Shown here: positions 1,237 to 33,604 of the stretch, piece by piece
Numbering within the stretch: position 1 is the first letter of the stretch
How the letters are laid out: the number at the start of each line of letters is the position of its first letter
Virus record (IMG/VR): IMGVR_UViG_3300009184_000019
Coordinates: 1-33,604 of that record
Reading direction: 5' to 3' (one strand)
Origin: a virus
Length of the DNA: 33,604 bases
The notes under the pieces: model-generated
Seen by the model: only the letters and a program-made list of their open reading frames with translations
The model's database searches: none
Told to the model about the DNA's origin: nothing
Program-made: the position numbers and the translations under genes

Positions 1237-1411
1237 GGATGCACCTTAACTTGGTGGAAGGTGGCGCTGTTCCATCGCAGCGGCAATGTTCCAGCACCAC
1301 CTTTCGCAAAACTTGTTAAAAGGTGGGAACTTTTGCTGCGCTATTAACCGCCACTTAGTGCAAACTGTTTTTCAATAGCGTTGCTTTATTGGCGCAACTA
1401 GAAAAAATACA

Positions 1412-1425
1412 CCAAGCGTCCAAAA
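1412..1425. repeat. 14-bp direct repeat, copy 1
   Basis: CCAAGCGTCCAAAA, identical to 1505-1518. The second copy overlaps the closing strand of the 1451-1509 stem (CCCAAG), so copy 1 could compete for pairing with CTTGGG at 1451-1456. Confidence 0.8.
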
Positions 1426-1504
1426 CCAAAAGTCCCCACCTAAAACAAGACTTGGGCATCTATCCAGGAACAGTCCTACCTAGATTGAACAGGAGGAAGA
1501 AAAC

Positions 1505-1518
1505 CCAAGCGTCCAAAA
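1505..1518. repeat. 14-bp direct repeat, copy 2
   Basis: Identical to 1412-1425, within the structured intergenic region. It begins inside the CCCAAG arm of the nested hairpin. Confidence 0.8.
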
Positions 1519-1520
1519 GG

Positions 1521-1558
1521 AATATACATCAAGAAAATCTATAATGCAACAAGGTGGT
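1521..1558. repeat. Imperfect ~38-bp direct repeat, copy 1
   Basis: Starts with an exact 16-mer AATATACATCAAGAAA, then TGCAA and GGTGGT at nearly the same spacing as in copy 2 (1720-1756). GGTGG of this copy forms the outer arm of the 1553-1605 hairpin. Confidence 0.75.
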
Positions 1559-1719
1559 GATAGCCCCGTGAGCAGTTGTTAGAGTCCTCAGTCAGGGCTA
1601 CCACCCACTTTTCCGCCAGTAAATTGCCGCACAGCTAACATCGGGCGAACAAAAACCAACGGCCAAGCGCTCTTGGTAGAGTCTTAAGCGAGGATGACGT
1701 GAGCAGAGCCTCTAAGGTA

Positions 1720-1756
1720 AATATACATCAAGAAAGCTTACTCTGCAAAGGGTGGT
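1720..1756. repeat. Imperfect ~38-bp direct repeat, copy 2
   Basis: Exact 16-mer shared with 1521-1536, followed by TGCAA and GGTGGT with one base less spacing. It is followed directly by a 7-bp hairpin (1758-1774) just beyond the endolysin stop. Confidence 0.75.
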
Positions 1757-1783
1757 CATTTCCAAAATGGAAATATCCACAAT

Positions 1784-22978: not shown

Positions 22979-23120
22979 TTTCAACCTTGCCGATGCAATC
23001 GCCAACATCATCCGCTATAAACTCAATCCTGGCGACATTGATAGCAGCCTAACGGACAGCGAGATTGTTGCCATTCAACACCTGAACGCCGCCTATGGGG
23101 CGCTGATGGCTAACGATTAA
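22968..23120 (+). CDS. Hypothetical small protein, last gene of rightward block
   Basis: A 50-residue helical protein beginning MTNNFNLADAIANIIRYKLN and ending AAYGALMAND. It overlaps the upstream coiled-coil gene by 11 nt; a GGAAAAGG sequence inside that gene serves as ribosome site. It is followed by inverted repeats and a strong terminator. No family recognised. Confidence 0.65.
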   Translation: MTNNFNLADAIANIIRYKLNPGDIDSSLTDSEIVAIQHLNAAYGALMAND

Positions 23121-23146
23121 CCCATTGCCCAGCTGGAGGTGGCATA

Positions 23147-23185
23147 AAACACCAGCGGCTAGTGGTGGATTTTTTACTGGTGTTT
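23147..23185. repeat. 9-bp inverted repeat downstream of rightward block
   Basis: AAACACCAG (23147-23155) and CTGGTGTTT (23177-23185) are exact complements with a 21-nt loop. It lies 26 nt after the last stop and 18 nt before the main terminator stem, and may help to stabilise the mRNA 3' end. Confidence 0.55.
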
Positions 23186-23202
23186 GCATCCATGAACTAG
23201 CA

Positions 23203-23230
23203 GGGGGGGCTTCGGCTCCTCCTTTTTTTT
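23203..23230 (+). terminator. Rho-independent terminator with UUCG tetraloop
   Basis: An 8-bp stem (G7C against GCTCCTCC, with two G-U pairs) closed by a CTTCGG tetraloop and followed by eight T's at 23223-23230. This is a textbook intrinsic terminator for the rightward block ending at 23120. Confidence 0.88.
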
Positions 23231-23234
23231 GCGA

Positions 23235-23375
23235 TTTAATCTGCAATTTAATCTGCAACCCGCAATTTATCCTGCAGTTTAATCTGCAATAAAAATTGTA
23301 AAGCCTTGATAAATAAGATTGTTATTTTGCTTTAATCTGCGATTTGCAGATTTTATCCTGCAGTTTATTTTGCAA
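23235..23375. repeat. 12-mer iteron array with AT-rich core, candidate replication origin
   Basis: Seven copies of a 12-mer TTTAatcTGCAr at 23235-23246, 23247-23258, 23266-23277, 23278-23289, 23331-23342, 23352-23363 and 23364-23375. Adjacent pairs keep a 12-bp period. A 41-bp very AT-rich segment (23290-23330) splits the array 4+3. Iterons plus an AT-rich melting region are the usual design of an initiator-bound origin. The array lies at the 3' end of the replication block, between converging transcripts. No gene is present at 23121-23502. Confidence 0.6.
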
Positions 23376-23397
23376 TGCGACGATCCTGGTGGTCGAT

Positions 23398-23437
23398 TGT
23401 GCTGGGGGTGACCCCCTTGTGCTGGAGGCAACCCCCT
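23398..23437. repeat. Two tandem 20-bp repeats, each a hairpin
   Basis: TGTGCTGGGGGTGACCCCCT is followed directly by TGTGCTGGAGGCAACCCCCT (17 of 20 identical). The first contains the stem GGGGG/CCCCC and the second a weaker version. They lie 66 nt beyond the stop of the leftward replication block and may limit read-through into it or out of it. Confidence 0.6.
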
Positions 23438-23502
23438 ACCCATTTACCGTTTCGCATTTTAAGGGGGGCTACAATCATTTTGCCCCGCGTTTGGTACATC
23501 GC

Positions 23503-24006
23503 CTAGGAAAAATCATCAAGGTACACGTCTTGCCCTGTTTTGTGCGTTGTAGGAGCAGGCCTGATAACTTTGTTGATGTTCTCTGCAATGTAGCGGTCAT
23601 GGCGTGGGTCGCGGGTGTAGTATCGTAGGGTGCTGTCGCTATCCACCCAGGCGGGCTGTTCGCGGCGGTAGAAAATACACTTGGCCTTGACTGCATCACG
23701 CATCCACCCCAGGAAACGGTCGAATTCCAGGAACTGCGGGTTGATGTAATCCTTTGTTTTGGATTCGGCGGTAGCGTACTGGAACCATTGGCTGGCTGCT
23801 GATAGCAGGTCGGACTCTATGCAACCGCTGTGGATTTCGTCTGCCACGGTGCTGGCCTGTTTGATTCTATCCTTCCATTGTTGAACATAATCATAAATCC
23901 AATCGCGGCGATGTTTCTGCTGGTGGCGCATTTCCTCCACCGTCCAGCTGGCATATGGATTGCGGCCGTAGACGTCATATGCTGTGGTCATAGTCGTCGC
24001 TTTCAT
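23503..24006 (-). CDS. Hypothetical protein of the replication block
   Basis: A 167-residue, Trp/Tyr/Arg-rich soluble protein with helical segments (EEMRHQQKHRRDWIYDYVQQ) and a C-terminal RYYTRDPRHDRYIAENINKV. It overlaps the helicase-loader-like gene by about 32 nt. Starts at 24006 (residue 1) and 23991 (residue 6) are both possible; neither has a strong ribosome site. Position suggests a replication or DNA metabolism role; no motif was recognised. Confidence 0.7.
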   Translation of the reverse strand: MKATTMTTAYDVYGRNPYASWTVEEMRHQQKHRRDWIYDYVQQWKDRIKQASTVADEIHSGCIESDLLSAASQWFQYATAESKTKDYINPQFLEFDRFLGWMRDAVKAKCIFYRREQPAWVDSDSTLRYYTRDPRHDRYIAENINKVIRPAPTTHKTGQDVYLDDFS

Positions 24007-24430
24007 GGCTGTTGGTCAAAAGGGCTGGCTGCTCTTGCTGGTACTGCTGCAAGTTTTTCCTGTCCTGTTGGTTTTGCTGAAACTCTTGCAAGGTGTATCT
24101 GCTGCAATAGGTTAAATAATTCCTTTCCTCATCCATAACAAACAGATTTTCCTTAATTTTATTTTCAATGGCGCGAACAGTGTTCCAACATGGCTTAGCA
24201 GGAGGCGGGTCGATAATGTTTATAATATCGGCTGGGGTAGGCATTTTACTATTCCTATCCATGTACCTTCCAAACGCTTCGCAAACAATATCAAACGGAT
24301 ATTTTTCAAGCCTATTAACAAACATAAAACAAGCATCTGCTAGTTGGTCAGGTGTTCTTCCAAAAGTATCCAAAGTGTTAAAACACTGAACGATATATTT
24401 AGCTAATGCCGCTCTATCAGTCCTATTCAT
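23975..24430 (-). CDS. Putative helicase loader (lambda P / G39P N-terminal-like)
   Basis: A 151-residue protein. Its central part, LEKYPFDIVCEAFGRYMDRN then SKMPTPADIINIID, follows the YPxxxVxxAFxxYxxxxxxxPTPADIxxxI pattern of phage helicase-loader and replication proteins, and the C-terminus is Gln-rich. Such proteins recruit the host DnaB helicase to the initiator-bound origin. The start at 24430 overlaps the initiator stop by 8 nt (ATGAATAG). A longer open frame to 24676 merely overlaps the initiator gene and encodes a poly-Gln stretch, so it was not used. Confidence 0.68.
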   Translation of the reverse strand: MNRTDRAALAKYIVQCFNTLDTFGRTPDQLADACFMFVNRLEKYPFDIVCEAFGRYMDRNSKMPTPADIINIIDPPPAKPCWNTVRAIENKIKENLFVMDEERNYLTYCSRYTLQEFQQNQQDRKNLQQYQQEQPALLTNSHESDDYDHSI

Positions 24431-25514
24431 GCCTGTTTGCTTTGAGTTCGATGGTGTTGTCTCGCTCGTCAAGCATTGCGAGTGCTCTTGCTGCTGCTGT
24501 TGCTGCCTCGTATCCTTTTCCTCGGGGCGCTGCAAGCTGTTTGATTGTGTAGTCAGAATCCCATCGCCCTTGGTTAAGCCAGGTTGTAGCGTGGGCAATA
24601 TGCCGTTGCTCTGTTCTTTCTGCTCTAACGAAATTTGCATAGCCTCTAACGCCTCTTTCAATGATTTCATGGCCAACTCCTTTGTTGATTGCCTTAATGT
24701 AAATTTGAAATGCCTCTTGTTTCGAGCCGTCCCTTCTTGGATACAAATTCCAAAAATTCAAAAACTCGTCGGTGTAACCGATTGCTGTGTTCCTTTCCCT
24801 TCCTTTCCCTTCCTTTTCCATTCCCTTCCTTTCCTTTCCTTTCCCTTCCCCCTGTGCGTGCACGTGCGTGCACATGCGTGGCATGTCATCCAGGGTTAAG
24901 CCGTCACGACTAAGGTCTTCAATAAAGGCAACACCTGCGACTGGACGCGCAGAATTGCACGCTCTACAAAGGCATCTCAGGTTAGAAATGGCGTGAGTAC
25001 CCCCCATTGATTGAGGGAATATATGGTCAACTGTTAGGTCTTGTGTGCTTCCACAGCGCACGCATTGGTTTCCGTCTTTTGCAAAAACCAATCCACGAAG
25101 TTTTGGGGTTATGTTCACTCCCCTATCAATGTGAATTGTAGTTAATGTGCGTGCACGTGCGTGCACCAGATATTCATTATCACACGCAGGTAATAATGAT
25201 TTTGCCTCCCGAACGTTAATAACTTGGTGCTTAGAAAATCCAGGTATCCACCCATAAAGCTCTTCATCAATTTCATATTTTTTGATAAATCCATGAGAGT
25301 GCAAAGCCTCTAAAACTGCCTCAAAATCCACGTCATCGAATGGCAAGCAATCTAATTTAATCGCCCTGGGCTTCCACTTGAAACGACCCTCCCTATCGGC
25401 AACAGTCCATAGACCTGCAAAAGCAATTCTAAGGGGTAGCTTTGTGGACTTTTCAGTCTCAAACAATCCCTCATGCCTAAAAAACTCTGGTTTTACCGTT
25501 CTAATTCTGGCCAT
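24423..25514 (-). CDS. O-like replication initiator with an inserted HNH domain
   Basis: A 363-residue protein. Residues 1-110 are the winged-helix N-terminus of phage/plasmid replication proteins (MARIRTVKPEFFRHEGLFET, LPLRIAFAGLWTVADREGRF, GFSKHQVINVREAKSLLP). Residues 139-190 form an HNH nuclease with zinc Cys151/154 and Cys183/186, Asp163-His164 and Asn178. Residues 222-242 are the usual GEGKGKE-type low-complexity linker. From 247 comes the C-terminal FLNFWNLYPRRDGSKQEAFQ domain. Normal family members join the first part directly to the GEGKG linker, so the HNH is an insertion. Direct repeats lie at both edges. Start: ATG 25514, only a GGGG-type ribosome site. Confidence 0.85.
   Translation of the reverse strand: MARIRTVKPEFFRHEGLFETEKSTKLPLRIAFAGLWTVADREGRFKWKPRAIKLDCLPFDDVDFEAVLEALHSHGFIKKYEIDEELYGWIPGFSKHQVINVREAKSLLPACDNEYLVHARARTLTTIHIDRGVNITPKLRGLVFAKDGNQCVRCGSTQDLTVDHIFPQSMGGTHAISNLRCLCRACNSARPVAGVAFIEDLSRDGLTLDDMPRMCTHVHAQGEGKGKERKGMEKEGKGRERNTAIGYTDEFLNFWNLYPRRDGSKQEAFQIYIKAINKGVGHEIIERGVRGYANFVRAERTEQRHIAHATTWLNQGRWDSDYTIKQLAAPRGKGYEAATAAARALAMLDERDNTIELKANRHE
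24787..24852. repeat. Polypurine/polypyrimidine low-complexity tract
   Basis: About 65 bp of TTCCCTTCCTTTCC-type repeats on the plus strand; on the coding strand it gives the Glu/Gly/Lys/Arg linker of the initiator. It directly adjoins the GTGCACGCAC repeats, so it could also take part in origin melting or in replication slippage. Confidence 0.75.
24853..24873. repeat. 21-bp direct repeat, downstream edge of HNH insertion
   Basis: TGTGCGTGCACGTGCGTGCAC followed by no further base of identity; it equals 25146-25166. On the coding strand it is two tandem GTGCACGCAC decamers plus A. Confidence 0.9.
25146..25166. repeat. 21-bp direct repeat, upstream edge of HNH insertion
   Basis: Identical to 24853-24873. 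The first decamer of this copy (25166-25157) and the second decamer of the other (24863-24854) are both read as Val-His-Ala and lie 303 bp apart, an exact codon multiple. Confidence 0.9.
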
Positions 25515-33459: not shown

Positions 33460-33604
33460 GCCAGATTTCAGTGATGTTTGGGGTGGACTGGTAAGAGATA
33501 TGTGGTTTGATTATCACCCAGACCGCAACCCATGCGAGCATGGGAACTATACATCCAATACTGATGGGTCGGTGTGCGTGCAGTGTTTACAAAATCTTTT
33601 TGAC
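33452..33604 (+). CDS. Hypothetical phage protein with W-DGYGA motif (5' part)
   Basis: Start of the gene that continues at 1-417. The ATG at 33452 overlaps the preceding stop by 8 nt (ATGACTAA), with GGAGAAG upstream. The window ends at codon 51, and the frame continues without change at base 124 of the left end, to give 148 residues in total. Confidence 0.88.
   Translation, partial: MTKPDFSDVWGGLVRDMWFDYHPDRNPCEHGNYTSNTDGSVCVQCLQNLFD
33482..33604. repeat. Direct terminal repeat, right copy
   Basis: Identical over 123 bases to 1-123. It marks the point where the contig closes on itself. Confidence 0.97.

Follow-up and report, generated by a model that had tools for sequence, protein, structure and literature searches.

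The 547-bp gene-free gap at positions 1237-1783 appears to hold most of an array of small noncoding RNA genes with which a phage late operon ends; we put the probability of this reading, which rests on sequence comparison, at about 0.8. The window, here and below, means the whole 33,604-nucleotide stretch that was analysed, an IMG/VR record. Comparison with related phages shows on which strand the units lie, which promoter elements precede them, where the predicted start of unit A falls, how the terminal hairpins pair, and that whole modules are exchanged. Two terminal hairpins carry compensatory changes, and conservation jumps at the predicted +1, downstream of a promoter that the relatives retain; both support the structured phage RNA that an initial annotation had proposed in the gap. 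A single large ornate RNA of the GOLLD or ROOL sort, which the annotation had mentioned without claiming membership, was not supported: two minus-strand RNAs, each with a promoter of its own, are predicted within the gap, and a third unit lies at 757-614.

Genome and locus

The window carries an exact 123-bp direct terminal repeat (1-123 = 33482-33604), and the genome is therefore probably complete and circular, or circularly closed, with a length of about 33.5 kb (about 33,481 bp). It encodes a P22-type portal (E 5e-139) and a P22-type coat protein (E 1e-25); the phage is a P22-like podovirus. The late genes lie on the minus strand, with lysozyme last, and the early genes on the plus strand, and both converge near position 620. 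The initial annotation had placed the gap exactly. It is flanked by minus-strand ORFs at 760-1236 and 1784-2278, and the longest ORF inside it has at most 51 aa. A family search with ORF 760-1236 gave no match. A second gene-poor region, at 22979-23503, contains TTTAATCTGCAA-type iterons and, at about 23204, GGGGGGGCTTCGGCTCCTCC, which resembles a strong terminator and leads into a run of Ts; a replication-initiation/HNH gene (24423-25514) is nearby, and this region is likely the replication origin. The features of the array and its surroundings, all on the minus strand, are as follows, in minus-strand 5' to 3' order.

1784-2278, minus: lysozyme GH108 (Pfam PF05838, E 2e-24), the last gene ahead of the array
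1752-1780, minus: hairpin directly 3' of the lysozyme stop codon (inverted repeat I6), kept in L007 and L008
1720-1748, minus: predicted unit B promoter, TTGCAG-N17-TATATT; the same element precedes unit B in L007 and L008
1551-1713, minus: unit B RNA, predicted 163 nt, with a 5' hairpin, a middle hairpin and a 3' terminal hairpin (fold -56.8 kcal/mol)
1556-1605, minus: unit B terminal hairpin, 11 bp + 4 bp, with the conserved loop CUAACAACU
1521-1549, minus: predicted unit A promoter, TTGCAT-N17-TATATT
1254-1514, minus: unit A RNA, predicted about 260 nt (109-126 nt in relatives), starting GGACGCUUGGG at +1
1451-1509, minus: unit A 5' domain, with closing stem CUUGGG/CCCAAG and the pyrimidine tract UUUUCUUCCUCC
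1321-1441, minus: extra domain within unit A, with a 15-bp closing stem and a second, promoterless GGACGCUUGG start (1421)
1259-1303, minus: unit A terminal hairpin, 17 pairs
760-1236, minus: small membrane (holin-like) ORF; by tblastn, L009/L002 are the only close relatives that also have it after the array
729-757, minus: predicted unit D promoter, TTGACA-N17-TAATCT
614-722, minus: unit D, predicted small RNA of about 109 nt with an intrinsic terminator (655-614) at its 3' end

Module exchange among related phages

Lysozyme searches of IMG/VR yielded related contigs whose lysozyme is 75-93% identical. Together they represent six independent genomes, in addition to the window, that have the region intact: L007 (= L005, L006, L011), L008, L009 (= L002), L010, L012 (= L015) and L013 (= L014). 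In all seven, the stretch after lysozyme is noncoding and is built from modules that differ between genomes.

Window: B-A (extended)-ORF-D
L008: B-A-D
L007: C-B-D
L013: C/B hybrid-A-D
L009: A-ORF
L010 and L012: A only

The 5' part of the window's unit B recurs in L007 and L008, and its 3' part in L008 and L013. In five of the seven genomes (L007, L008, L010, L012 and L013) the ORF that follows the array runs in the opposite direction, and there is no same-strand ORF. A leader, a riboswitch or an RNA like put of HK022 would have nothing to act on in these five relatives, and the RNAs themselves are thus probably the product.

Predicted promoters and RNA starts

The pattern TTGCAN-N17-TANANT occurs twice in the 33.6-kb window against about 0.2 matches expected. 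Both matches are in the gap on the minus strand, just ahead of the predicted starts of units B and A, and in the loci of the relatives the pattern is found exclusively in front of units. A simple consensus scanner did not rank these two promoters high, because the -35 box is TTGCAT, a mediocre box with 3/6 matches to consensus, rather than TTGACA.

Upstream of unit A the six genomes match in essentially the promoter elements only. Of 50 upstream bases, the columns that agree are TTGCA, TA.A.T, a single base of the spacer and two bases at the distal edge. The 11 invariant bases GGACGCTTGGG begin at +1, which lies seven bases past the -10 box; the predicted +1 of unit B has the same spacing. Between L009 and L013 the identity is 51% over the 35-base promoter and 97% over the RNA. 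The upstream context of unit A varies: in L009, L010 and L012 it is the lysozyme C-terminus, and in the window, L008 and L013 it is the hairpin of unit B. This pattern of conservation around +1 is what should be expected of an independently transcribed RNA gene. In L009, L010 and L012 (at 4493, 2322 and 4493, respectively) the -35 box of unit A (TTGCAT or TTGCAC) doubles as the end of lysozyme (Leu-His-Pro-stop), so that promoter and gene overlap.

Folding and strand

On the minus strand the gap folds to -200.5 kcal/mol, compared with -158.8 kcal/mol for shuffles (z -6.5); the value for the plus strand is -160.4 kcal/mol (z -3.5). In 200-nt tiles the gap is moderately unusual (best z -3.3) and other regions of the genome score lower, so folding energy alone is no proof of RNA and we relied on comparative evidence. 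The orientation is fixed by the stems, because their G-U wobble pairs on the minus strand are C-A mismatches on the plus strand and are tolerated by one strand only.

The hairpins at 1258-1303, 1451-1509, 1553-1605 and 1683-1716 that the initial annotation had listed are present and match domains of the predicted RNAs. The repeats it described were also found: CCAAGCGTCCAAAA at 1412 and 1505, AATATACATCAAGAAA at about 1521 and 1720, each then followed by TGCAA and GGTGGT, and CGTGAGCAG at 1567 and 1698. Their interpretation as recurring RNA motifs stands in part, since the 16-mer plus TGCAA is minus-strand promoter sequence.

Conservation of pairing in the terminal hairpins

Covariation among related phages was seen in the terminal hairpins of units A and B. 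In unit A, all 17 pairs are standard (100%) in five genomes, and three pairs are changed on both sides. For each of three measures (paired cells, cells changed on both sides, covariation score), only 3 of 500 shuffles came up to the observed value, and none of the slid controls did. With five sequences only, the remaining two measures, namely pairs changed on both sides and further pair types, did not rise above shuffles, which restricts the claim. Compensatory changes were also looked for in the highly conserved 5' domain of unit A, and none was found. Covariation is limited because the genomes are few and many of the seven that carry the array are near-identical in its conserved parts.

Between the window and L013, the unit B terminal hairpin has both sides changed in 6 of its 15 pairs and one side in a further pair; no pair is broken, and the loop CUAACAACU is kept. 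A null model that places substitutions gives about 6e-5 for this compensation, a value that holds for pairs aligned by hand, as the MAFFT alignment misplaces gaps there. Both end hairpins of unit B (1567-1594 and 1670-1706) contain GACUCUAmCAA together with CUGCUCACG, circularly permuted between the two: the strands form a terminal loop in one and an internal loop in the other. These strands may be a recurrent RNA motif.

The covariance model R1 matches the window at 1421-1254 (E 6e-15), aligning it from the second GGACGCUUGG start through the terminal hairpin of unit A. The extra domain of about 120 nt at 1321-1441, an inverted repeat (I4) with 93% complementarity, is missing from L008 and L009. 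The extended unit A looks like a fusion of two units.

Unit D, kept in L007, L008 and L013, ends in a terminator with a 19-bp stem followed by TTTTT. It is the only unit with a U-tract terminator; units A, B and C have none. Set against the features of phage-encoded small RNAs, the array thus shows separate promoters and a conserved RNA start, together with compensated secondary structure in the terminal hairpins of A and B only.

Searches for homologues and host

The window and seven relatives had no match in Rfam 15 at gathering score, and positions 1100-1900 had none up to E 10; the region accordingly matches neither GOLLD nor ROOL nor any other family there. No tRNA was found in the window. 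Searching the gap and unit D against phages by blastn gave marginal matches of at most 38 bases to Streptococcus phages, which we took as chance, and neither the L013 region against phages nor positions 600-1783 against plasmids gave a match. Exact-pattern scans of IMG/VR with unit A, B and D motifs returned the same clade and chance matches only (L373 included); the 14-mer alone is non-specific, with at least 119 matches. With model R1, neither about 1 Mb of loci of lysozyme relatives nor 385 genomes from the class of the Alphaproteobacteria MAG behind L193 yielded a new match; that class was guessed as the host's, so the second negative carries little weight. Among genomes, an Alphaproteobacteria MAG has the nearest lysozyme (59%), which is weak evidence on the host, and a search with the portal protein gave no close relative. 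Within what was searched, the units have no homologue outside the clade. Crude duplex scoring of the units against phage translation starts gave pairing no better than that of shuffled RNAs.

Comparison with known phage RNAs

Within the literature searched, the Pas sRNAs of lambdoid prophages (PasA-D; also STnc100, AgvB, AsxR and Esr41) come nearest in setting: they lie next to a holin/lysozyme operon, vary between phages and spread by recombination (PMC13192938). The Pas genes are not in tandem and each has an intrinsic terminator with a U-tract, whereas the array units stand head to tail and A-C have none; the 3' stem-loop plus U-tract of Pas-type Hfq-dependent sRNAs is found in unit D only, not in A or B. 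GOLLD and ROOL are structured noncoding RNAs encoded by phages (PMC12286853). They are single large RNAs, often near tRNA islands, unlike the several small RNAs of the array, which lies in a window without tRNA and matches neither model. The P22 sar and sas small RNAs come from a P22-type phage and pair with the phage genes ant and sieB (PMC12197685); the array, in contrast, is not antisense to any credible ORF and has no phage target above chance.

Alternative explanations

The position of the array directly downstream of lysozyme on the same strand, and the intrinsic terminator at the end of unit D, would fit a late-operon 3' UTR whose hairpins stabilise or end the lysozyme mRNA. Such a UTR does not account for the repeated internal promoters or for unit A hairpins that lack U-tracts, and a terminator does not need loops and an RNA start conserved in sequence; we regard this explanation as improbable. 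Nor do we give much weight to a cis-acting leader or antitermination RNA like put of HK022, made from a promoter and modifying RNA polymerase or regulating the downstream gene. The put RNAs are about 70 nt with two stem-loops, and putL lies directly downstream of an early promoter (PMC9378689); the array shares with them a structured RNA just past a promoter, from +1 onwards and without its own terminator. Put acts in cis at early promoters, whereas the array stands at the end of the late operon rather than at the start of an operon, has several unlike units in tandem, and in five of the seven genomes is followed by convergent genes.

Palindromes that act as DNA and not as RNA, for instance REP- or MITE-like repeats, packaging sites or sites of protein binding, would be in keeping with modules that come and go, with the repeats that they have in common and with the nested insertion in the window, bounded by inverted repeats. 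Against this stand the G-U pairs kept for one strand, the conservation that sets in at the predicted +1, downstream of a retained promoter, and the single orientation of all units, and we hold it to be very unlikely. RNA anti-CRISPRs (Racrs), decoys that mimic host CRISPR repeats, would be a possible function of an array with the same anatomy rather than a different anatomy. They are small, promoter-proximal, phage-encoded and solitary (PMC10651486), short promoter-driven RNAs like the array units, and cassette exchange is consistent with an arms race; the array units are longer and multi-domain, CRISPR-repeat mimicry is the Racr hallmark, and the units have no Rfam match of any kind. That the array consists of Racrs is a faint prospect.

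Proposed function and significance

The array of small RNA genes is thus the reading we prefer. On this reading, a sigma70-type promoter on the minus strand drives each unit, and the host RNA polymerase would transcribe the units separately from the late operon. The product of each would be a compact RNA in which a 5' domain is followed by a strong terminal hairpin. Related phages gain, lose, swap and fuse the units. The RNAs would probably act in trans. We tentatively favour, at somewhat less than even odds, a mechanism in which exposed conserved segments bind host or competitor-phage RNA; candidates are the UUCUUCCUCC tract of unit A and the CUAACAACU loop of unit B. The tract UUUUCUUCCUCC, exposed in unit A of L008, L009, L013 and the window, is complementary to the Shine-Dalgarno sequence. 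Our second choice would be that the RNAs serve as decoys or in anti-defence by binding a host protein. That units turn over rapidly suggests roles directed at the host or at competitors.

Accounts of phage small RNAs usually treat them singly, and most concern phages of enteric bacteria. We found no description of an array form in the limited literature searched. It is a rather doubtful but possible extension that the locus is of an undescribed kind, in which interchangeable promoter-plus-RNA cassettes, passed on by module exchange, make up a trans-acting repertoire against hosts or competitors; if true, the cassette array would be the RNA counterpart of anti-defence gene islands. The array offers defined RNA ends and loops for testing, in phages with no cultured close relative in the collections searched. 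A tandem set of separately promoted, structurally conserved RNAs, swapped as modules, would demonstrate that RNA genes are maintained and exchanged by phages in the same way as anti-defence genes.
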